DNA of 58,758 nt, from assembly GCA_949299395.1 (NCBI GenBank), contig CASGAB010000006.1, forward strand, positions 1 through 58,758, written 5' to 3'. The translations under genes were made by a program, and so were the position numbers. Under the pieces are notes generated by a model. It was not told where the DNA came from, made no database searches, and saw only the letters and a program-made list of their open reading frames with translations. This DNA comes from an uncultured bacterium (GTDB lineage: Bacteria > Bacillota_I > Bacilli_A > RFN20 > CAG-826). Of this stretch, positions 100 through 58,758 are shown in pieces; the stretch's first letter is position 1, and every line of letters begins with the position of its first letter.

Positions 100-185
100 A
101 AAAAGATATTTCTTTTTTAACTTCACTTGTAACTAAATTTTTAACTGATTATTTACAACCACTTTTTACGAAATCCAACGTATAG
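3..185 (+). CDS. Tail assembly chaperone (gpG-like), 3-prime part; gene starts at 58530
   Basis: This is the C-terminal 60 residues of a 104-aa protein. The real start is the ATG at 58530, which has an AAGGAGG ribosome binding site, and the gene crosses the map join. It sits directly before the tape measure gene, where long-tailed phages encode the G/GT pair of tail assembly chaperones that coat the tape measure during tail tube assembly. The frame stops at 183-185, but the -1 frame is open from 149 to a stop at 413-415. This gives the classic short and frameshifted long product arrangement. No family domain was recognised directly; the call rests on position, size and the overlapping frame. 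Confidence 0.75.
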   Translation: MNFILEHIEVNINGQWVQFKETGRDVYYPVGIEKDISFLTSLVTKFLTDYLQPLFTKSNV

Positions 186-415
186 AGTCTTTAACTCGTG
201 TTTCAACAGGACCAGAAGCGAAGTTATTATTAAATTGTAAGAATTTACATTATATAATATATACATTAATAACAAACAATTATGCTACTTATAAAGAAAT
301 ACGAGATGATTATACGTTGGAAGAAGTAGTTGCAATGTACGAAGCGTGTTTGGTTCATTTATATAATAAAAATGTTTTAAATGAATATTATAGAAAGAAT
401 CAAAAGAGGAGGTAG
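149..415 (+). CDS. Tail assembly chaperone frameshift extension (gpT-like)
   Basis: The -1 frame relative to the upstream chaperone is open from 149 and runs to TAG at 413-415. From about 188 it encodes a well-formed helical protein (beginning SLTRVSTGPEAKLLLN). It has no ribosome binding site or good start of its own, so it is most likely made only as a fusion by -1 ribosomal slippage. If the shift occurs at about 162-168, the fusion protein is about 181 aa: 99 residues from the first frame and 82 from the second. The tape measure ATG follows at 425 after a GAGGAGG sequence. Programmed frameshifting here is known from lambda gpG/gpGT and many other tailed phages; its use in this phage is inferred. 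Confidence 0.7.
   Translation, partial: LFTTTFYEIQRIESLTRVSTGPEAKLLLNCKNLHYIIYTLITNNYATYKEIRDDYTLEEVVAMYEACLVHLYNKNVLNEYYRKNQKRR
162..168 (+). other. Candidate -1 frameshift site
   Basis: CTTTTTA lies inside the short window (149-183) where both the chaperone frame and its -1 frame are open. The run of five T allows tRNA-Phe on UUU to re-pair one base back. In the zero frame the codons read CTT TTT ACG, so this is not a perfect X XXY YYZ heptamer and the exact slip point is uncertain. Confidence 0.45.
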
Positions 416-424
416 GAGTAATAT

Positions 425-1639
425 ATGGCTCAAAAAGAAACTTATTATACTAATTTACAAGTTGATGTTACTACTAACACCTCTCAATTTGAGAAATTTA
501 AAAAAAGTACTGATAAATGGATCAATAATTTTAATTTAGATGATACTATTAAAAAACAATTAAGTGATGCTGCTTTACAAACGAAGAAATGGGAATTAGA
601 GTTTCAAAATATTTTAGAACTTCGTGATAAATTAAATGATGTTTTAAAAAATAATAATTTATCAGATGAAGCTAGAGTTAAAGCAAATGAACAAATAGTC
701 GAGGCTAATAGGGAATTAGCAGAGTTATTTGAGAAACAAAAAGAAGCTGGAGTTTTAAGCGAAAGAGAGATTAAAAAAGGAGAGAGGGTTATTGGAACAG
801 GTGAAAAAGAAGAATCTTTTTTATCTGAATTTATTAAAGGTGATGAAGGTAGTTTTGGTAAATCTCTTAAATCAGCTGCTCTTGATACTTTTGGTCCTAA
901 AAGTTCTTTAGCTGAAACGGTTGTTGGTGGATTTAAAGACATACTTGATTCTATTGTTAGTTTTGTAGCAGATATAATTAAAGAAGCTTTTGAAAAAATA
1001 GAAAACATGGCTTCTTTTAATCTTGGATTAACTAATAGATATAATGAATCTGCTATATCTTATTTTGAAAACTGGGGATTAACTGGTGCAAATGCTTATG
1101 CGATGCAACAAGCATTAGAATCTGTCGGAATGAATGATGTTGAAGATTTGTTTATGGCACAAGGTTATGGAATGACTGAAGTGTTAGAAGAATTTAAAAC
1201 ACAGTTCGAATATTTTAAAAATGAATATGAAACAACTGATGAAGAAATGATTCTCACATATCAACAATTTCAAAAAGACTGGAATGATTTTAAACAACAT
1301 TTTCAACAAGAAATAATTACTTTCTTTTCTAATAATAAAACTCTTCTAACAGATACTTTAAATACTTTAATCGATGTATTACCTTCTTTATTAGAAGTAA
1401 CAAAAGGAATATTAAGTGCAGTAAAGTGGTTATTACCGCATTCAGTAGGAGAAACTACAAAACAAGCATCAGATATTTATGAAAGTATTGGAGCAGTTAG
1501 TAATAATAGTCAAATCATTGACTCACATGCTGTTACTAATTACACATTTAATGGTATGACACAATCACAATTAAACGAAATTAAATCGTCAATAAATAAA
1601 GGAAACACTGAATACTATAATTCTAAAGCCGTGAGGTAA
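425..1639 (+). CDS. Tail tape measure protein (short)
   Basis: The 404-aa protein has heptad-rich, Glu/Lys-rich coiled coil at residues about 15-130, a hydrophobic/amphipathic middle around 165-200 (DSIVSFVADIIKEAF), more helix, and a hydrophobic segment near 310-340 (IDVLPSLLEVTKGILSAVKW). Position after the frameshifted chaperone and before baseplate genes identifies it as the tape measure, which sets tail length and fills the tube. At the usual 1.5 angstroms per residue this would give a tail of only about 60 nm, short for a contractile tail. I see no peptidase or lysozyme domain in it, unlike many longer tape measures. The start has a GAGGAGG site 10 bases upstream. Confidence 0.8.
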   Translation: MAQKETYYTNLQVDVTTNTSQFEKFKKSTDKWINNFNLDDTIKKQLSDAALQTKKWELEFQNILELRDKLNDVLKNNNLSDEARVKANEQIVEANRELAELFEKQKEAGVLSEREIKKGERVIGTGEKEESFLSEFIKGDEGSFGKSLKSAALDTFGPKSSLAETVVGGFKDILDSIVSFVADIIKEAFEKIENMASFNLGLTNRYNESAISYFENWGLTGANAYAMQQALESVGMNDVEDLFMAQGYGMTEVLEEFKTQFEYFKNEYETTDEEMILTYQQFQKDWNDFKQHFQQEIITFFSNNKTLLTDTLNTLIDVLPSLLEVTKGILSAVKWLLPHSVGETTKQASDIYESIGAVSNNSQIIDSHAVTNYTFNGMTQSQLNEIKSSINKGNTEYYNSKAVR

Positions 1640-14653: not shown

Positions 14654-16690
14654 ATGGCAACAATAACATTAAAATTAGAAAATATAAGTGTAGATGGTGT
14701 TCAAGTAAAATTAAGTGATGGTAGTAAAATTACTTTAACTTCAAATGACAATTTAGAATATAGTGGAGAATTTGAAAATTCAACTCCTAATTTAAATTTA
14801 AAAGAAATAATTTTAGGAAACATCAATGGTTTAGATACAAACGATGACAGATTTTTTATGTCTGTTAATGACGATTTTTTTAGTCCTCATATTGAACAAA
14901 TTAAACCAGATGAAAATATCGGATATATCGGATATGTTTATAGATTTTATTTTTATAGCAACATTCCGTTAAATTCTGATACTACTAATATTACTTTAAA
15001 ATACAATCCTATTGTTGATTGTTATTGGAATGGGCAACTTGGTGGCTTTGATAGTTTAATAGGTAAATATGTATTTTTTATTCACAAAAATAGCACTATA
15101 AATAATATAGCCGAATATGTTTTTACAATAAAAAATATTGATACAATTGAGAGAAAATTATCGTACATTAAGAATTCTCAAAAAGTTAAAGAATGGACAA
15201 TTAAACCACAAGAAGAAATTACATTTAGATTTGATTTTACAGCAGGTTATTTAAATCAAAGTTATTTTGTAGATAACACAAATGATGATGTAGGTATTTT
15301 TGGAGGCTGGGAAGATACTTATGGTTTTAAGGAGTTTACTTCTAGTAATGCTGATACTTTTAAAGTGACTTATAATTATGACCCTTCTTCAAAAAAAATT
15401 ACGATTACTGATATTAATAATATTAATAGTATGTATGGTTATTCTATATATGGAAATAATGGTTATAGTGCTGAGGTTGATACTGATAATGGAAATATTA
15501 TCAATGATAACTCTGATACACTTTCTATTGTTGCAATTGATTATGATTATACATATTACTATAAAAATATTTATATTGGTGATGGTAATGAAATATTTAA
15601 GAAATTTATTAATATAAATTTTGCTAATTTTAGATTTGATAAGGTTTCAATAAAAATTAGTAATAATAGTGATGTAAAAACAATAGTTTTAAATACAAGT
15701 GATGACATTAATTTTGTTGGAAGTTTTGATACACTTGAGAATGAAACTTGGTATTTACAAGAAATTAGTTTTGAAACTGAAAAAATACTTGACATTTCAG
15801 CATCGTTGTATTCAATTAGTGGTTTAACTATTAATTCTGTAGGAGGAGGCAATGGAACTTACACAATTGGAGTTGAGGATTATGAATTAAGCAATGATAA
15901 TAATTTTAATTTTAATTATACAGGTGAAGTATCTTTATCAAATAAAACAATTTCATTACCTAATTTACAAAGATTTTTACAAAATTGTGATGATAGATAT
16001 GGTCCAGTTGTTGATTATTCAAACGAAATTAACATACCTACAACGCCAAACACTTCTTTAATGGGTATTATTACTAATGATGCATATAAAAATGCAAAAG
16101 CAATAAAGGTTAGAAGTGCTGCATTATATTTAGCATTTGATACTACATTAAATTTAATAGAAAAAGGTGATATTTCAGGAATGGGGTATTATATTTTCGG
16201 TAGTACTACTTTTAATAATTTTTTAAATACTCTTGCTAATTCTGAGGGTCTGAATAACATTTCTTTATATGGAATTTATGTTTTAATTACTGCAACAGAG
16301 GAAGCGACTTATTATATAGCTTCTTTATATACTTATAATCTTCCTTGCTATGCAAGTTCTGATATGCCAGCAAATAGTTATACTTTGCCTGTTGTTTTAA
16401 ATAAAGATATTTATACTGATGACACTTCAATGTATGCATTAATACCAGAACCATCAACTTTACAATATGATTTTAATGATAGTATAGCACAAAATACAAG
16501 TGCTAAAATAGTTTTAGATTCACTTGGCAATCCGTTCTTAATTAGGTCAATAACACCTAGTATAGATGGTATAGACGTTAGTTTTCCATTTATAGATAGT
16601 GCAACACAAAAAATAGCATTTTATATTAAGAACAATACGCAAGATTCAGTAAGCAATTTCACGCTTACTATTACATATTTTCAAAAATAA
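14654..16690 (+). CDS. Large beta-rich virion protein, probable fibre/adhesin
   Basis: The 678-aa protein is rich in Asn, Asp, Tyr, Ile and Thr and almost wholly beta in character. Similar strands recur: VDGVQVKLSDGSKITLTSND near 15-34 and FDKVSIKISNNSDVKTIVLN near 330-349, each followed by an EFENSTPNLNLKEI- or FDTLENETWYLQEI-type segment. This points to at least two repeats of one domain. No enzyme motif was found. It closes the fibre cluster and probably forms a distal adhesin. GGAG lies eight bases before the start. Confidence 0.6.
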   Translation: MATITLKLENISVDGVQVKLSDGSKITLTSNDNLEYSGEFENSTPNLNLKEIILGNINGLDTNDDRFFMSVNDDFFSPHIEQIKPDENIGYIGYVYRFYFYSNIPLNSDTTNITLKYNPIVDCYWNGQLGGFDSLIGKYVFFIHKNSTINNIAEYVFTIKNIDTIERKLSYIKNSQKVKEWTIKPQEEITFRFDFTAGYLNQSYFVDNTNDDVGIFGGWEDTYGFKEFTSSNADTFKVTYNYDPSSKKITITDINNINSMYGYSIYGNNGYSAEVDTDNGNIINDNSDTLSIVAIDYDYTYYYKNIYIGDGNEIFKKFININFANFRFDKVSIKISNNSDVKTIVLNTSDDINFVGSFDTLENETWYLQEISFETEKILDISASLYSISGLTINSVGGGNGTYTIGVEDYELSNDNNFNFNYTGEVSLSNKTISLPNLQRFLQNCDDRYGPVVDYSNEINIPTTPNTSLMGIITNDAYKNAKAIKVRSAALYLAFDTTLNLIEKGDISGMGYYIFGSTTFNNFLNTLANSEGLNNISLYGIYVLITATEEATYYIASLYTYNLPCYASSDMPANSYTLPVVLNKDIYTDDTSMYALIPEPSTLQYDFNDSIAQNTSAKIVLDSLGNPFLIRSITPSIDGIDVSFPFIDSATQKIAFYIKNNTQDSVSNFTLTITYFQK

Positions 16691-35460: not shown

Positions 35461-36183
35461 TTATTTTACCCCTCCTTCTAACCAATTGTAAAAATCTATA
35501 ATATCACTTTCTTCTTCTTTCCCTCTTCCATAAACACCTTTCTTAATATCATCTACAATATTTTCTTTTAAGTATTTATAAAGAGTTTCTTTTTCATAAG
35601 TTGTAAAACTAGTGAAACTGTTTTTATAAAAAGCAACAGCTTTTCTAAAACAAGGTTTACAACTAAAACATGGTTTATTATCTTTTGATGGATTATAACA
35701 ACTAAAACTTTCACTCCAAGCTTTCTCAATATCTCCACCTTTATCTAAATACTCTTTTAATAACTGCTTCTTATCTTTATCTTTAAAACTAACTAATACT
35801 TTAACTACTCTACCTTTTTTAATCCAGTGTTGAGGTTGATATAAGTAAGATAATAAGTTAGTAGCTAATTTACTAAATTCAACTGATTTATCTAATACTC
35901 TATCTCCAGCTGTAGCTCCTAACATTATTTCTAAATCATCTTCTGTAAATTCGTTACAAATTATCATTGGTAGATATAAGTTTCTGAGCGGTAATATTAA
36001 ATCTTCTTCTCTTTCATACTTACTTAAATCAAAATCAATAACTTTTACGTCTTTTGGTAGTTTAGAAAGTTCAGTTTGACTATATTTAGTGTGTAAATTA
36101 ATATAAACCTTTACATCTGGTTCCCATAACTTATCTATTAACCAACTATCCATCCCTCCACTATACAATAATACTTTTTTCAT
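35461..36183 (-). CDS. queC: 7-cyano-7-deazaguanine (preQ0) synthase
   Basis: The 240-aa protein has the PP-loop ATPase motif SGGMDS (8-13) and the Cys-rich zinc site SCYNPSKDNKPCFSCKPCFR (about 161-180), both hallmarks of QueC. It converts 7-carboxy-7-deazaguanine to preQ0 with ammonia and ATP. No glutamine amidotransferase domain is fused to it, unlike Gat-QueC proteins linked to dG+ phages, so preQ0 is the expected end product. Confidence 0.9.
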   Translation of the reverse strand: MKKVLLYSGGMDSWLIDKLWEPDVKVYINLHTKYSQTELSKLPKDVKVIDFDLSKYEREEDLILPLRNLYLPMIICNEFTEDDLEIMLGATAGDRVLDKSVEFSKLATNLLSYLYQPQHWIKKGRVVKVLVSFKDKDKKQLLKEYLDKGGDIEKAWSESFSCYNPSKDNKPCFSCKPCFRKAVAFYKNSFTSFTTYEKETLYKYLKENIVDDIKKGVYGRGKEEESDIIDFYNWLEGGVK

Positions 36184-52340: not shown

Positions 52341-53828
52341 ATGAATACAGATATGATTAAAAGCTTGGTTACAGCTTATACAAATAATGACAAAGTAACC
52401 TTAAAAGACAGTGTGATTGAAGGTGCTACTAATATAATTGAAAAATATATTGACAACGGTAACGCTCCACTTACTATTAAAGACCAATACGGTAATTATC
52501 TAACAGCAACTGGAACTGATGATAAGATAAAATCATTCACACAATACGGATTCTCCAATGATACTTTAAATTTCCCTCTATGGCTTGCTTTATATAACGA
52601 TAGTTGGGTATTTAGAAAAGCGATTGATAAACCATCTCAAGATATGATAAGAGCTGGGATTACTATTAATGGGGATTTTGATACTGAAGTTGTTTATAAG
52701 GAATTAAATAAACAAAGAAAAGAATTAATTAATTTGTTAAAATGGGGAGCTCTTTTTGGAGGAGCAGTTGCAGTAGTAATGTTCGATAATTTTAACGACG
52801 AAGACTACGCAAAAGAATTTGATAAGGAAAAAGTCAAACAATCTAAAATTATAAAACTATATGTTACTGATAGATGGTATGGAGTCGCTGAAGATACTTT
52901 ACATACTGTTACTAACATGAGTTCTTTAGATTATGGTAAACCACGTTCTTATGAAATTACTTTTTCTGACGGTAGAACTTTAAAAGTTAATCACGCTTAT
53001 GTGTTAAGGTATGAACATCGTTCAGCACCTCGTCTTATTAAACAAGGAGCGTTACAAGGTTGGGGGTATGCTGAAGGAGCTCATATTATTAATGAGTTAG
53101 CGAGAGATGATGATTTAAAAGCATCTATCACATCTTTATTAAATAAATCTCTTATTGAAGTTATTAAGATGAGTGGAATGAGAGGGTTATTTATGGGGAA
53201 TGATAAAGAGAGTGAGGAGCAAATTAAGAAGAGACTTGAAATGGTTAACTGGGCTCGTAATTATAACTCACTTACTTTTTTAGATAAAGATGATGATTAT
53301 CAACAAAACGAATACGGTGGATTAACAGGACTTGCTGATTTGTTAGATACTAATATGAAGTTAGTATCAGCTGCTATTGATATGCCTGGAGTTTTATTTG
53401 GTGATTTGAAAGACGGAATGGGTAATGATCAAGATGCGTTAGAAAGATATGATCAAGTTATTCAAGATAGATGTGAAGATTATTTAAGAGATATATTAAC
53501 TAAATTACTTTTTATTATTTATGTTAAGTATGGAGTAGATGAAAAAGTTGATTTTACTTTTAATTCATTATTGATGAAAAAACAAGCAGATGATAAGTTA
53601 GAAGGTATTAAGAACTTTCAAGAATTGTTATCAAATATGTTGAATGATGGAGTAATATCATTAGCTCAATATGCTAAATCTCTTCAAAACTTCTCACTTA
53701 CGGGAACAATTGATTTTAATATAGATAGTGAGGATATAGAGGAGCTTAAAAAGAAAGAAGTTGAGGAGAGCGAAGAAATTGATTTGGGGGAGAATGATGA
53801 AGATGAAGTAAATGGAAAAGTATTTTAA
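52341..53828 (+). CDS. Portal protein (DUF1073-like), apparently leaderless
   Basis: The 495-aa protein has the DUF1073-type portal pattern: FPLWLALYNDSWVFRKAIDK then PSQDMIRAGI (about 77-108), LLKWGALFGGAVAVVMFDN (about 132-150), VNHAYVLRYEHRSAPR, MVNWARNYNSLTFLDKDDDY (about 300-320) and DMPGVLFGDLKDGMGNDQDA (about 350-370). The portal ring is the gate for DNA. There is no Shine-Dalgarno sequence; a -10 box ends eight bases before the ATG, so the mRNA is probably leaderless. The terminase lies far away on the other strand. The C-terminus is very acidic. Confidence 0.85.
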   Translation: MNTDMIKSLVTAYTNNDKVTLKDSVIEGATNIIEKYIDNGNAPLTIKDQYGNYLTATGTDDKIKSFTQYGFSNDTLNFPLWLALYNDSWVFRKAIDKPSQDMIRAGITINGDFDTEVVYKELNKQRKELINLLKWGALFGGAVAVVMFDNFNDEDYAKEFDKEKVKQSKIIKLYVTDRWYGVAEDTLHTVTNMSSLDYGKPRSYEITFSDGRTLKVNHAYVLRYEHRSAPRLIKQGALQGWGYAEGAHIINELARDDDLKASITSLLNKSLIEVIKMSGMRGLFMGNDKESEEQIKKRLEMVNWARNYNSLTFLDKDDDYQQNEYGGLTGLADLLDTNMKLVSAAIDMPGVLFGDLKDGMGNDQDALERYDQVIQDRCEDYLRDILTKLLFIIYVKYGVDEKVDFTFNSLLMKKQADDKLEGIKNFQELLSNMLNDGVISLAQYAKSLQNFSLTGTIDFNIDSEDIEELKKKEVEESEEIDLGENDEDEVNGKVF

Positions 53829-54066
53829 AGATAAATATTTTATAGCTTTTTATGATGAAAGAAATGAATATTTAGTTACTACTTTTAATAATATTTATGA
53901 AGTAATTAAGTATATCAAAAAGAAAAAAAATATTAATGTTACTTATAATAAAGTATATTTTGCGATATATCACGCTCTTAAAAACAATGGAACAACTACT
54001 ATTTTAGATGGTAGAAAATTATATGTTTATATTTACGAAGCAGATGATTGCGAGGAGGAGAAATAA
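53812..54066 (+). CDS. Unknown small protein (84 aa)
   Basis: The start lies inside the portal end (17-base overlap). The product (YFIAFYDERNEYLVTTFNNI; EVIKYIKKKKNINVTYNKVY; YHALKNNGTTTILDGRKLYV) resembles small phage regulators or adaptors found in Gram-positive systems. Its C-terminus is related to that of the 60-aa protein at 7518. Function unknown. Confidence 0.65.
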   Translation: MEKYFKDKYFIAFYDERNEYLVTTFNNIYEVIKYIKKKKNINVTYNKVYFAIYHALKNNGTTTILDGRKLYVYIYEADDCEEEK

Positions 54067-54068
54067 TT

Positions 54069-54425
54069 ATGAAATATGTAAAGATTCAATCTAATAAGAC
54101 CATTCGTGTTACTGCTGGATTACAATTTATTGATAATACTAATCCACAAGCAAATACAGCAGATAAATTAAAAATTAGTGCTGAATGGCCAAAGTTAGCT
54201 TTTTTAATTGTTAAAGGTAGTCCACAGTGGTATCCTGAATACATTACTAAATGGAATACAGTTCAAACTTTAGTTAAAAGAGGAGTTATGACAATTTCTA
54301 ATGAAGTAAAAGATGATTGTGAAGATGAAAAAGTAAAAGAAATTGCTAATAAAGTAGATAACAATATGAAGCAATATAACAAGAAGGTTAAAAAAGAAGT
54401 TTCGCTTGATAAGCTAGGAGAGTAA
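54069..54425 (+). CDS. Small virion or head-associated protein (118 aa)
   Basis: The ATG at 54069 follows GAGGAGGAG at an ideal distance and is preferred over an in-frame ATG at 54048 inside the previous gene. The product begins KYVKIQSNKTIRVTAGLQFI and contains KLKISAEWPKLAFLIVKG, then a helical, Lys-rich C-terminus. It may be a small structural or head-fibre base protein coupled with the 703-aa protein five bases downstream. Not recognised. Confidence 0.6.
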   Translation: MKYVKIQSNKTIRVTAGLQFIDNTNPQANTADKLKISAEWPKLAFLIVKGSPQWYPEYITKWNTVQTLVKRGVMTISNEVKDDCEDEKVKEIANKVDNNMKQYNKKVKKEVSLDKLGE

Positions 54426-54430
54426 GTTAA

Positions 54431-56542
54431 ATGGCTTTAAATGCTAAAAATGAATTTCGTGTATTAAGTGAAAATTCAGAAAACGTACAAACATCTGAAG
54501 AATTTGATACTGATGAGGATAGAAAGTTAGGATTTCAACCAGGTCAGGTTATTGTATCAAAAAAAGTTAATACTGCTTTAAAACAAAATTCGCTCATTGT
54601 AGTAGCTTTAGTTGATGCTTTGATGAAAGAAGATTCACCTACTTTATCGATAGCTTCAACAGTTGAGGATTTAATATCTTTTTTCAAAAACTCTTTTTCT
54701 AATTTACAAAGTACAAGAAAAAAGCAAAATAGGTTGTTTGCGACGGCTTCAAGTATTGAGAGCGAGTGGAATACAACTTATGATATTATTACCTTACAAA
54801 CAGCAGGAACATATAATTTTACTTTTAACGATATTAATGATAACATCAAACAATCTTACGAATGCGTTGTAATTACTCAAGCAGGAGGAGTAGTATTATC
54901 ATTTCCAACAGGTTCAGCTATTTTACAATTAAATAAATTTAATTGTACTATTGGTGATCCTGCTAACACCATTACTCTTCCTACTGCATCTACTTATATA
55001 GTAGAAGTGGTTGTAATTAATTCACAAACTTATGAAGTTACAATATTAGACTATAATGGAGCAATTGCTCACGTTATTCAACAATTCACAATTACCACAC
55101 AAGATGGAACTAATCTTATTAATAGTAATAATGCTACTAATCCAACGTTTAATCTTAAACTTACTAATCCAAATACAGTTAATGTTAATTACGTTATTAC
55201 AGGTGATTTAAGTAAGAGTGGAGTAGCTAATGCTTCAACTGATACTATTGTTAGTGGTTCAGCTACTTCTTTAAAAGATAGTTATACGTTTAATTTTGCT
55301 TTTACTGCTGATGATTATTTTGAATCATCACAAACATCTACTTTTACAACTAAATATACAGTTGATGCTTGTAATGTAGTAGCTGATGGAACAGATGACT
55401 CTAATTCGAGAACAATTACTGTTACTGCTCCTACTTTATCTAACTCTGCTACTTATAAAATTTATTATAAGATATGGTGGGAGGATGAAGAGGAACCAGT
55501 TGAATATACAATGATTCAAACATCTCCTGCTACTGTTACAAGAACAAATTCAACATATAGTAATAGAGTAGTTAAAGTTAAACAGTATGTTGAGATGTAT
55601 ATTAGCGAAGTATTAAAAGCAACTTCTGAAGTTAAAACAACTGATATTAATATTAAAGGAAGAGAGATTCCAACTCTTACTTCACCAACTGTTGATTATA
55701 GAAGTAGAGGATATTGTGGAACTGGAACTCTTACAATCAACGTAACAAACCCAAATAGTGTAACAGTTAATGTTTATGCAAGAGCAGGAGCAGGTAGTTA
55801 TACAAACGTTGGAACTATAACAGCTAATTCTAATTCTAACTTTACATTAACTGGAGTCGCTAATTCAGCGGGAACAGTATATGCATATCTAACAGCTGTT
55901 AGTTATAACAATAGTGGGACAGGAAGTGATTCATATCCAGCTTGTACAAATCCATGTGATTGTGTAAGTTATGTTCCTACTCCTACAGTCGATTGTGTTG
56001 ACGTTACATCATTTACTGCAACTGCAATTGGAGGTAATTTCAGCTTGCAAAGCGGTCAAGGTACTGCATCTGCTACTTATGAATATACTAATAGCATAAC
56101 TAATAAAGTCACAGTTAGAATTAGGAATAATGCTTCTTATACAGTTAGTTATAGTGGAACAGTTGCTGGTGAAAGTGTTAGTGGTTCATTATCAGCTGGA
56201 CAAAGTGCAACATTAACTGGAACAACTGATAGCTCAAGTTGCTCATATAGAATTGTCACGTCTAGTCCAGGTTATGATTCTTGCACTACAAGTGATTCAA
56301 TGTTTAATACAACTACTTCTATGAGCATTTTTGTTTATTCACAAGGTTATTGTCCATCAGGAGGCGGTACATGTGATATAGATAAAGTCACAGGTGATAC
56401 AAACTATTGTTCTTATGACATCTCTCGTGGTTCGAGTAGATGTAGTAATTGTAAGCCAACTGGAACAAGCTTCTGTGCTATAGCAGATTTATGTCCTGTC
56501 TCTTTAACGAATATTAACTGGGATGAAAATATATCTTTTTAG
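54431..56542 (+). CDS. Large Ig-like virion protein with Cys-rich C-terminus
   Basis: The 703-aa protein has an N-terminal part (1-120) with helices, a beta part (about 125-220) and then Ig-like or fibronectin-like repeats (NPTFNLKLTNPNTVNVNYVI, about 240-260; GTLTINVTNPNSVTVNVYAR, about 435-455; VTVRIRNNASYTVSYSGTV). The C-terminus holds seven Cys in 48 residues, with spacings of 6, 11, 10, 2, 7 and 5 between them (CPSGGGTC, RCSNCKPTGTSFCAIADLC). Ser, Thr and Asn dominate. It is probably a head or tail adhesin. The next genes include a radical SAM/SPASM enzyme, so the Cys region is a candidate substrate for post-translational thioether or other modification. Confidence 0.65.
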   Translation: MALNAKNEFRVLSENSENVQTSEEFDTDEDRKLGFQPGQVIVSKKVNTALKQNSLIVVALVDALMKEDSPTLSIASTVEDLISFFKNSFSNLQSTRKKQNRLFATASSIESEWNTTYDIITLQTAGTYNFTFNDINDNIKQSYECVVITQAGGVVLSFPTGSAILQLNKFNCTIGDPANTITLPTASTYIVEVVVINSQTYEVTILDYNGAIAHVIQQFTITTQDGTNLINSNNATNPTFNLKLTNPNTVNVNYVITGDLSKSGVANASTDTIVSGSATSLKDSYTFNFAFTADDYFESSQTSTFTTKYTVDACNVVADGTDDSNSRTITVTAPTLSNSATYKIYYKIWWEDEEEPVEYTMIQTSPATVTRTNSTYSNRVVKVKQYVEMYISEVLKATSEVKTTDINIKGREIPTLTSPTVDYRSRGYCGTGTLTINVTNPNSVTVNVYARAGAGSYTNVGTITANSNSNFTLTGVANSAGTVYAYLTAVSYNNSGTGSDSYPACTNPCDCVSYVPTPTVDCVDVTSFTATAIGGNFSLQSGQGTASATYEYTNSITNKVTVRIRNNASYTVSYSGTVAGESVSGSLSAGQSATLTGTTDSSSCSYRIVTSSPGYDSCTTSDSMFNTTTSMSIFVYSQGYCPSGGGTCDIDKVTGDTNYCSYDISRGSSRCSNCKPTGTSFCAIADLCPVSLTNINWDENISF

Positions 56543-56551
56543 GAGAATAAT

Positions 56552-56809
56552 ATGAAAGGCTATTTTAAAACTAATTCAAATATTTTCTGTAGTCATCTCA
56601 AATTTGAAAATAATATTTATAATATTTATGTATTTTCACCTAACATATCTATTACACAAGATGTATTAGATGAAAAAGTTGAAATGACTGAAGACTTTAA
56701 ATTAAAGTATCTTGATAAAAGGTGGGGTTTAATTAAAGACTATGATGATAAACTTATTGAATATGTATTAAGCAAACATAAAGATTATGAATTTGTAGAG
56801 GTAGAATAA
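56552..56809 (+). CDS. Small protein in the radical SAM cassette (85 aa)
   Basis: The start has AGGAG seven bases upstream and lies ten bases after the stop of the 703-aa gene. Its stop overlaps the radical SAM start (TAATG). The product begins KGYFKTNSNIFCSHLKFENN and goes on (NIYVFSPNISITQDVLDEKV; LKYLDKRWGLIKDYDDKLIE). Size and position would suit a peptide-recognition partner (RRE-like) or a small substrate for the enzyme, but no PqqD-type pattern can be claimed by eye. Confidence 0.6.
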   Translation: MKGYFKTNSNIFCSHLKFENNIYNIYVFSPNISITQDVLDEKVEMTEDFKLKYLDKRWGLIKDYDDKLIEYVLSKHKDYEFVEVE

Positions 56810-58035
56810 TGAGTTGTTCTGTTTGTGAAGTAAAAGCATTAGCTAAAAATAGTAGAAAAGGCTTTCTAGATACTTTATTCATTACATTCATGATTACTAA
56901 TGATTGTAATTTTAAATGTAGCTATTGCTTTGAAACTAACAAGCAACATAGTTATTTGAAAGAAGAAGATGCTTTACAAGTTATTGATAGGATGTTCGAT
57001 TTTGAGGATAATTTAGATTATTGGAAATGCTTCTATAATAAAGAGCATCCTATCAAATTTATTCATCTTGCTTTTTTTGGAGGAGAGCCATTATTAAATC
57101 CAAAGTTAATTGAAAAGATATTAGATAGATTTGTTGATAATTGTAAAAAAAATTTAAGTAAATATGAAAAAAGATTAAATACATTTACTTCATCTATCAT
57201 CACTAATGGTTCGCTTTTAAAAACTAATGATACTATTCATCTTTTAAATAAATATCACGATAAAATCACGGTGAGCGTTACTTTTGAAGGTTCTAAAAAC
57301 TTTCATGATAGTTGTCGAAAAACGATTGATGGAAAAGGAACGTATGATTTAGTTAAAGAAAATATGTTGTTCTTTAAAAATAAATATAAAAAAGAATTGC
57401 ATCCTAAAATCACAATCTCTCCTTTTAACATCAAATACGTTTATGAAGCATATTTAGAATTAAAAAAGTTAGGAATTAAAGAAATTTACATGAAACCTTT
57501 AATTGATTCTAATTTGTGGAATAAACAACATTGTAAGATTTATGATGAACAACTTAAACTAATTGTTCAAGATTTATTAAAAGATGAAAATAAAGATATT
57601 TCATATACGATGTTTAAAATTAATGACATTAGTCCTCTTGAAGAAGTTATTAATCCAGGATGTGGGGTTGGAAGAGGTTCTATCACACTTAATGTTGATG
57701 GTAAGTTCTATCCTTGCTATTCGTTTACTGATATCGAACAAGATAAAGAAGATGCTAAAAAGTTTGTTATTGGTGATAGCGAAAAAGGAATATATGAATA
57801 TGGTAACAATCTAACGAATGAAGATTTAAATAAATGGATTGATTTAAAGAAATTAGCTAATGAAGATTGTCACCAATGTTTACTAACTAAATATTGCACA
57901 CCTTGTGTGGCTAATAATTATAAGTTTATGAAATCTTATTTAGAGTCTCCTACTTGGCATTGTAAATTATTACAAGTTCAAAATAAATGGGCTTTGATTT
58001 ATAACTATCTTAAGAAAGAAGGTAAATCATTATGA
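56809..58035 (+). CDS. Radical SAM/SPASM maturase
   Basis: The 408-aa protein has the radical SAM cluster motif CNFKCSYC (Cys33, Cys37, Cys40), GGEPLL (91-96) and TNGSLL, a TIM-barrel core to about 260. The C-terminal SPASM domain has C-x12-G-x4-C (CGVGRGSITLNVD, then GKFYPC), CHQCLLTKYC followed by TPC, and a last Cys in WHCKLL: seven Cys, enough for auxiliary iron-sulphur clusters. The last spacing (C-x2-C instead of C-x3-C) differs slightly from the usual pattern. SPASM enzymes modify peptides and proteins (sactipeptides, SCIFF, sulfatase maturation). Overlapping starts couple it to both neighbours and put it in the virion operon between an adhesin and the tail chaperone. Confidence 0.88.
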   Translation: MSCSVCEVKALAKNSRKGFLDTLFITFMITNDCNFKCSYCFETNKQHSYLKEEDALQVIDRMFDFEDNLDYWKCFYNKEHPIKFIHLAFFGGEPLLNPKLIEKILDRFVDNCKKNLSKYEKRLNTFTSSIITNGSLLKTNDTIHLLNKYHDKITVSVTFEGSKNFHDSCRKTIDGKGTYDLVKENMLFFKNKYKKELHPKITISPFNIKYVYEAYLELKKLGIKEIYMKPLIDSNLWNKQHCKIYDEQLKLIVQDLLKDENKDISYTMFKINDISPLEEVINPGCGVGRGSITLNVDGKFYPCYSFTDIEQDKEDAKKFVIGDSEKGIYEYGNNLTNEDLNKWIDLKKLANEDCHQCLLTKYCTPCVANNYKFMKSYLESPTWHCKLLQVQNKWALIYNYLKKEGKSL

Positions 58036-58526
58036 AAGAAATAAAAATATTGATGGAACCTATAGTTAAAACATATTCTTTGCAGATGCCATTTAACGCT
58101 AGTGGATTATTAGTTGCTTTAGTAAATGATGATAAAATTACTTATCTACAAAATCCATATATTAAATGGCCTAAATTTGATAAGGATGGTAAATATGAAG
58201 TAAAAGTTTACGAAAGTAAAACTAAAAAAGATATTTATACAACTTTTACTATTACGTATGATAATAAATTAAAACAAGATATATATTACGAAAGTAATGA
58301 TAAGAAAGGTTACTTTAAGATTAATAACAAAAATATATCGTTGTTTAGTTATAAAAAAGATGGTAAAGAAAAAGTTATTCCTATTTTTATAAGCGATCGA
58401 TATAATGGTGATTATGAGAAGTTTATGGAAGAATGGGGAGATAGATTTGATGAGGGGTTAATTAAAGAAGTTAAAGAAGAAGCTAAAAAACAAAATATTG
58501 AAATCGAATTTAAGGAGGTTAAATAA
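58032..58526 (+). CDS. Unknown protein coupled to the radical SAM gene (164 aa)
   Basis: The ATG overlaps the radical SAM stop by four bases. The product has an N-terminal beta part (KILMEPIVKTYSLQMPFNAS; GLLVALVNDDKITYLQ), a middle with many Tyr and Lys, and an acidic helix at the end (EEWGDRFDEGLIKEVKEEAK). It has no Cys, so it is unlikely to be a thioether substrate. It may be a structural protein or a maturation partner. An AAGGAGG site near its end serves the tail chaperone. Confidence 0.6.
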   Translation: MKEIKILMEPIVKTYSLQMPFNASGLLVALVNDDKITYLQNPYIKWPKFDKDGKYEVKVYESKTKKDIYTTFTITYDNKLKQDIYYESNDKKGYFKINNKNISLFSYKKDGKEKVIPIFISDRYNGDYEKFMEEWGDRFDEGLIKEVKEEAKKQNIEIEFKEVK

Positions 58527-58529
58527 AAA

Positions 58530-58758
58530 ATGAGAGAATTAGAAGTATTTAGAATGGAAGGAAAGAGTAATGAGTTTAGGGTAAAGAAAATATCACCTAC
58601 TACTTTACTCTCACTTCAAATTACATTAGATTTTAATGATTTAACTAAAACACAATCTTTAATGAATTTTATATTAGAACATATTGAGGTTAATATTAAT
58701 GGACAATGGGTTCAATTTAAAGAAACCGGAAGAGATGTGTATTATCCAGTAGGAATTG
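58530..58758 (+). CDS. Tail assembly chaperone (gpG-like), 5-prime part; continues at 3
   Basis: The ATG at 58530, with AAGGAGG nine bases before it, opens a frame that reaches the end of the window and continues in frame at position 3. The 44 residues before the repeated Met begin RELEVFRMEGKSNEFRVKKI and contain the beta-strand pattern of tail chaperones. The total short product is 104 aa, with a longer one by -1 frameshift near 162-168. Confidence 0.75.
   Translation, partial: MRELEVFRMEGKSNEFRVKKISPTTLLSLQITLDFNDLTKTQSLMNFILEHIEVNINGQWVQFKETGRDVYYPVGI
58660..58758. repeat. Terminal overlap, right copy
   Basis: Exact copy of bases 1-99; see the left copy. It shows that the map is circular or circularly permuted. 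Confidence 0.95.

Follow-up and report, generated by a model that had tools for sequence, protein, structure and literature searches.

Pairs of a radical SAM enzyme and a Cys-rich protein are already described for cells. In the CXXX-repeat system (CXXX/rSAM in NCBIfam, rSAM for radical SAM), known from bacterial genomes, enzymes of family TIGR04115 act on targets of families TIGR04114 and TIGR04117. PapB ranthipeptide maturases (NF047865) are a second related family, and their targets are short peptides, not virion proteins. A third is the SCIFF maturase family (TIGR03974), which includes CteB, for which structures have been solved (PDB 5wgg and 5why). In this study, we analysed a window of 58,758 nucleotides (contig CASGAB010000006.1, assembled with an uncultured bacterium) and a four-gene cassette in it that encodes a Cys-rich virion protein of 703 amino acids (aa) and a 408-aa radical SAM/SPASM enzyme. 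An exact 99-base direct repeat at the ends of the window (positions 1-99 and 58660-58758) shows that it holds an entire circular phage genome, 58,659 bp long once the second copy of the repeat is removed. It seems fairly probable, from comparison with related loci, that this phage-encoded maturase modifies the Cys-rich tip of the phage's own adhesin, probably by thioether bonds.

Radical SAM genes lying among phage tail or structural genes have been reported and termed highly unusual, in Aeromonas phage 332-Vera (PMC12390700), in a pelagimyophage host recognition cluster (PMC7029224), and in a T4-like marine genome with 12 such genes (PMC5332604). The passages of these papers that were examined neither link the enzymes to Cys-rich tail proteins nor propose adhesin maturation. 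Our search covered the open-access literature, with subscription papers and preprints outside its scope, and it found no report tying phage radical SAM enzymes to Cys-rich tail proteins. As far as seen there, a phage virion version of the cellular pairs, with a non-repeat adhesin tip, has not been described.

The cluster Cys of the 408-aa enzyme were located in the sequence. They comprise a CxxxCxxC motif (C33xxxC37xxC40) and the seven Cys of a full SPASM domain (285, 303, 354, 357, 363, 366, and 385), as proposed in the initial annotation, which had been made from the letters alone. The protein is thus a radical SAM/SPASM peptide maturase by its Cys motifs. All ten Cys are invariant across 28 aligned relatives, and the SPASM profile matched the window enzyme at 4.6e-4, just under the profile's cut-off. 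The best family profile was TIGR04115 (5e-49), which all 28 aligned enzymes also match, followed by PapB (5e-42, residues 25-372) and SCIFF (2e-30). These scores are far under the curated cut-offs, with 167.6 bits against 350, 144.3 against 340, and 106 against 425, respectively. By sequence comparison, the enzyme is distant from every named family. It also matched the radical SAM family PHROG 1802 (8e-41).

The enzyme resembles PapB in its full SPASM domain and in a core that is covered without a long N-terminal RiPP recognition element (RRE). An AlphaFold2 (AF2) model built from 20 viral sequences reached a predicted template modelling (pTM) score of 0.84; its nearest fold was the thioether-forming enzyme CteB (TM 0.7), which is also the closest solved structure by sequence (5e-18), and anSME was second. 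Unlike CteB, the window enzyme has no N-terminal RRE, as the SCIFF match begins at residue 26 and the N-terminus is disordered in the model, and its cassette has no short six-Cys SCIFF peptide. The initial annotation had compared the number of Cys, though not their spacing, with SCIFF peptides; by profile, the enzyme itself is closer to the CXXX-repeat and PapB maturases than to SCIFF. The base composition of the gene is consistent with a phage gene, and no other close copy was found in the host bin. Single-protein scans for close kin of the window enzyme returned nothing in viral contigs or genomes.

The 703-aa protein contains 17 Cys, of which 13 lie within the last 200 residues (505-688). 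The seven Cys noticed at first, at 641-688, span exactly 48 residues, and the cluster to which they belong is larger than had been noted. Thirteen Cys in 200 residues is unexpected against the virion-gene background of 0.9% Cys (p ~5e-8). The Cys density of the protein is the highest among the 90 open reading frames (ORFs) of the genome, and apart from the enzyme it is the only strongly Cys-rich product. No match was found in the Pfam, PHROG, or NCBIfam libraries, the NCBIfam target models included, and a single-protein scan of viral contigs for close kin was empty. The label "Ig-like" given to this protein at first was not confirmed in these three libraries, and its internal repeats are weak.

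Sibling phages were found through the capsid gene (65-75% identity) and the portal gene (56-61%). They retain the borders of the locus, namely the portal, two small genes, and the chaperone, and the genes in between are exchanged. In three siblings the first cassette gene matched up to about 90 N-terminal residues of the 703-aa protein in a database match, and a fourth aligned more weakly. These sibling proteins end differently: in an alanine/asparagine-rich tail, in a short tail with separate fibres, in a short tail with a holin and an amidase, or in an unrelated tail. None has a Cys-rich C-terminus. The 703-aa protein thus shares an N-terminal region with syntenic sibling genes and diverges at its C-terminus, as expected of an adhesin with a swapped end. 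Because the N-terminus is conserved and the C-termini differ, it seems that one end fixes the protein in the particle and the other can be exchanged. The exchangeable end in the window phage is, as read from the sequence, Cys-rich and accompanied by a maturase. The enzyme was absent from all 11 sibling records, several of which are fragments stopping short of the locus. In one sibling (L040, 3982-5177 in reverse-complement coordinates), the adhesin slot between portal and chaperone is occupied by a holin-like gene and an amidase.

We then examined the neighbourhoods of enzyme relatives. We counted a neighbour as Cys-rich if it had 10 or more Cys per 50 aa and was encoded no more than 4 kb from the enzyme gene. 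In viral contigs, 55 relatives were recovered by profile scan, 31 at E ≤ 1e-8 and 24 weaker. Such a neighbour was present for 24 of the 31 closer relatives and for 2 of the 24 weaker matches (Fisher p 3e-7), and a second batch of viral relatives gave 20/31. The survey of related phages for co-occurrence that the initial annotation had called for thus placed close viral relatives mostly beside Cys-rich proteins. The same Cys density was reached by 0 of 306 ORFs in the sibling loci. In bacterial genomes, 33/47 close relatives had a Cys-rich neighbour compared with 1/33 distant ones. Because bacterial genomes show it too, the pairing is general. Cells that lie near one another in the collections surveyed are not fully independent.

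The partners differ in their repeats, which include CxxxC/CxxC with up to 131 Cys, CTCNCNY, and DCVSRT types. Two are tail fibres with a Cys-rich C-terminus (L062 and L256), and one locus has two Cys-tailed tail proteins downstream of the tape measure (L071). In three others (L048, L054, and L298), the Cys-rich gene follows baseplate or fibre genes and precedes further fibre or lysis genes. L298 comes from the cultivable Neglectibacter timonensis SN17 (NZ_LT160640.1), in which a prophage-like tail module encodes a 59-Cys protein together with the enzyme. Among the viral partners, several are recognised by TIGR04114/TIGR04117, the NCBIfam models for proteins on which TIGR04115 enzymes act. Cys-rich partners in other phages match PHROG 6085, a family of unknown function, whereas the 703-aa protein matches no PHROG. 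Such an enzyme accompanies a Cys-rich tail protein in many phages that are unrelated to one another, so it is probable that phages use chemistry to harden or adapt the tips of their own tails.

Many matches among "Bacteriophage sp." MT83xxxx records were dropped as phage evidence, as their SCIFF-like C-termini and SecD/F-sized neighbours give them the look of bacterial SCIFF loci; six of these GenBank scaffolds (L004, L008, L012, L013, L015, and L016) probably represent host DNA contaminating phage collections. When viral contigs were scanned in reverse for TGY-N9 repeats, the matches were mostly of low complexity and in the wrong frame, which made the scan unusable as a reciprocal test.

The cassette would accordingly be named a phage-encoded module for virion-protein maturation. 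The N-terminus would anchor the 703-aa protein in the particle, with the C-terminal part as a distal, exchangeable receptor-binding or tip region. We infer that the substrate is the 13 clustered C-terminal Cys. The enzyme, encoded in one operon with this protein, probably modifies them inside the infected cell, either ahead of assembly or while it proceeds. If it works as CteB and PapB do, it would abstract a hydrogen and bond a Cys sulfur to a neighbouring carbon, which would produce thioether cross-links. These may stiffen or shape the tip and, unlike disulfides, would persist under reducing conditions. The 85-aa and 164-aa proteins, which contain one and no Cys, may be accessory factors for guiding, chaperoning, or assembly. 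No relatives were found for the 85-aa protein in profile libraries or for either protein by sibling comparison. The proposal that the 85-aa protein is an RRE or PqqD-like domain was not supported by its single-sequence AF2 model, which has seven strands and one helix and is not RRE-like, though the model is poor (predicted local distance difference test, pLDDT, 59).

Several observations weigh against self-modification of the adhesin. The chemistry is not visible in sequence. The tail of the 703-aa protein has irregular Cys spacing (7, 12, 11, 3, 8, 6) with no CXXX repeat and a density of 7 per 50 compared with 10-22 per 50 in most relatives' repeats, and no relative of this tail was found. 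The enzyme is 20-30% identical to its kin and sits on a long, poorly placed branch. In the enzyme tree, Cys-rich neighbourhood was neither grouped nor excluded as a label, and the window enzyme could not be placed. The proportion of 24/31 may be inflated, as the viral scan was seeded with two enzymes of known Cys-rich neighbourhood. Both seeds, L002 and L003, came from "phages" records and lay beside proteins with 22 and 32 Cys, respectively; L002 belongs to a genuine phage tail module, and L003 is probably cellular. A single-protein scan of viral contigs recovered no close kin of the L002 enzyme. Seven of the 31 close viral relatives had no Cys-rich gene within 4 kb, a few being fragments or having a partner slightly farther away. 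The initial annotation had named a radical SAM gene lacking any Cys-rich neighbour in related phages as a refutation, and this applies in part, to the minority and not to the majority. Its idea of an adhesin modified by the phage itself has strong comparative support, from the Cys-rich neighbours, several of them tail fibres, and the swapped slot in siblings, with that minority as an exception. The substrate claim is weaker for the window phage than for L048 or L298, because its Cys tail is less dense and non-repeat and its enzyme is a lone long branch.

The best surviving alternative, which we consider unlikely, is that the enzyme has a different protein target or forms a bond away from the Cys tail. 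It might, for example, introduce a C-C cross-link, epimerise a residue, or generate formylglycine in one of the tail proteins, the 85-aa and 164-aa products included, and the Cys tail would then be an independent tip stabilised by disulfides or metal. The second-closest fold, anSME, is a formylglycine-forming enzyme, and the window Cys pattern differs from the CXXX repeat of the matched family. In addition, no Cys-rich gene adjoins the gene for the related enzyme in Campylobacter phage CP20 and similar phages. However, the 85-aa and 164-aa proteins offer almost no Cys, the Cys-rich tail and the enzyme are adjacent in the window and both absent in siblings, and enzymes of this group generally adjoin Cys-rich proteins. 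In a Campylobacter phage CPt10-like contig (L064), a 69-aa protein at 15871-16080 has 12 Cys in CxxC repeats and lies 6.8 kb from the radical SAM gene; it is a possible distant partner.

It is improbable that the four genes are a small peptide or moron system, for example a bacteriocin-like RiPP (ribosomally synthesised and post-translationally modified peptide) or a host take-over function, merely located in the tail module beside an ordinary 703-aa adhesin. Gut bacteria have cellular TIGR04115 systems, whose CXXX peptides are not known from virions, and the slot is a variable cassette that holds lysis genes in L040. Nevertheless, the cassette has no small Cys-rich precursor peptide, its only Cys-rich product carries the virion anchor, and other phages have the Cys-rich part fused to tail-fibre domains. 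Action on host molecules during infection, on a surface protein or nucleotide and unrelated to the adhesin, is more improbable still, because a weak profile similarity to viperin-type enzymes (3e-15) and the common naming of phage radical SAM genes as auxiliary metabolic genes are set against a full seven-Cys SPASM domain, top matches to peptide maturases, and a location among virion genes, not metabolic genes.

Compared with the CXXX-repeat system, the candidate target of the window enzyme would be an irregular Cys tail on an anchored virion protein, without tandem CXXX. A broader proposal, put forward tentatively and with slightly more doubt than trust, is that radical SAM/SPASM maturases encoded in many phage lineages serve solely the Cys-rich tail tips of the phages that carry them, and that these tips form a general class of covalently cross-linked virion proteins. 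In the window phage, the enzyme may have switched to a tip whose Cys are irregular and form no repeat, carried by an exchangeable adhesin; receptor-binding modules would then swap together with their modifying enzyme. If maturation of the adhesin by the phage enzyme is true, phages would make enzymatic cross-links in their own receptor-binding parts, a virion chemistry for which we found no description, and the unexplained radical SAM genes within phage structural clusters would be accounted for. PHROG 6085 would gain a function, and the poorly understood CXXX-repeat enzyme family would become testable, because virions would supply its product in abundance and in a form that can be purified. 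In the anaerobic gut or rumen, where disulfides are unreliable, thioethers that are redox-proof would be well suited to phage particles.

The gene order of the module is portal, 84 aa, 118 aa, 703 aa, 85 aa, enzyme, 164 aa, and tail chaperone, and the coordinates are collected in Table 1. All ORF lengths and coordinates first annotated were correct, with gaps or overlaps of 9, 1, and 4 bases between the cassette genes. Its placement between portal and tail chaperone also held: the PF06381 portal lies upstream beyond the two small genes, and the chaperone became apparent when the circular ends were joined and four siblings aligned.

Table 1. Features of the virion module in the window
Feature	Position	Strand	Evidence
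Portal protein, left border of module, conserved	52341..53828	+	PF06381 5e-53; PHROG 146 8e-57; 56-61% identity in siblings
84-aa small protein, conserved	53812..54066	+	Homologues at equivalent place in siblings
118-aa small protein, conserved	54069..54425	+	Homologues 33-48% identical at equivalent place in five siblings
703-aa virion protein, putative adhesin	54431..56542	+	N-terminal anchor ~8-97, Ser/Thr-rich middle, Cys-rich 505-688 (13 Cys)
First Cys cluster, codons of residues 505-522 (C505, C509, C511, C522)	55943..55996	+	Cys positions
Codons of residues 641-688, seven Cys in 48 residues; presumed main target	56351..56494	+	Cys positions
85-aa protein, function unassigned	56552..56809	+	No relatives found; AF2 pLDDT 59, mostly beta
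408-aa radical SAM/SPASM enzyme without N-terminal RRE	56809..58035	+	Radical_SAM 1.6e-9; TIGR04115 5e-49; AF2 pTM 0.84, nearest PDB CteB 5wgg
164-aa protein without Cys	58032..58526	+	No relatives found
Tail assembly chaperone start, runs over circular junction into window start	58530..58757	+	104-aa joined product aligns with the gene of four siblings

The phage is one whole contig inside a 1.24-Mb bacterial bin whose bacterium has a small genome. The closure of this contig into a full circle had escaped the initial annotation. Phage hallmark genes in the window include baseplate J, DUF2213, major capsid, portal, terminase, DNA polymerase, and primase. The chaperone frame resumes at window positions 100-425 and is followed by a second overlapping frame, as in the programmed frameshift of tail chaperones.

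Further features were seen in the surveyed viral loci. Intein-like inserts interrupt radical SAM genes exactly at the third Cys of CxxxCxxC in L051 (6780-9170) and L056 (2362-4737) and at the first SPASM Cys in L060 (4825-7212), and each ends in HN ahead of the next Cys. A Cys-containing protein adjoining the radical SAM gene in L068 (9758-10432) seemingly has a Hint/intein-like domain inside. In L074 (1094-10927), several radical SAM genes surround a CTCNCNY-repeat protein and may be several maturases for one fibre, like published phages with 8-12 such genes. The radical SAM ORFs of L050, L070, L228, and L244 contain several in-frame TAG codons, which these phages probably read as an amino acid; with TAG read through, L070 has an adjacent 27-Cys protein. 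Finally, a QueC-like gene at window positions 35461-36183 (PHROG 1550, 1e-13) suggests 7-deazaguanine metabolism in the window phage.

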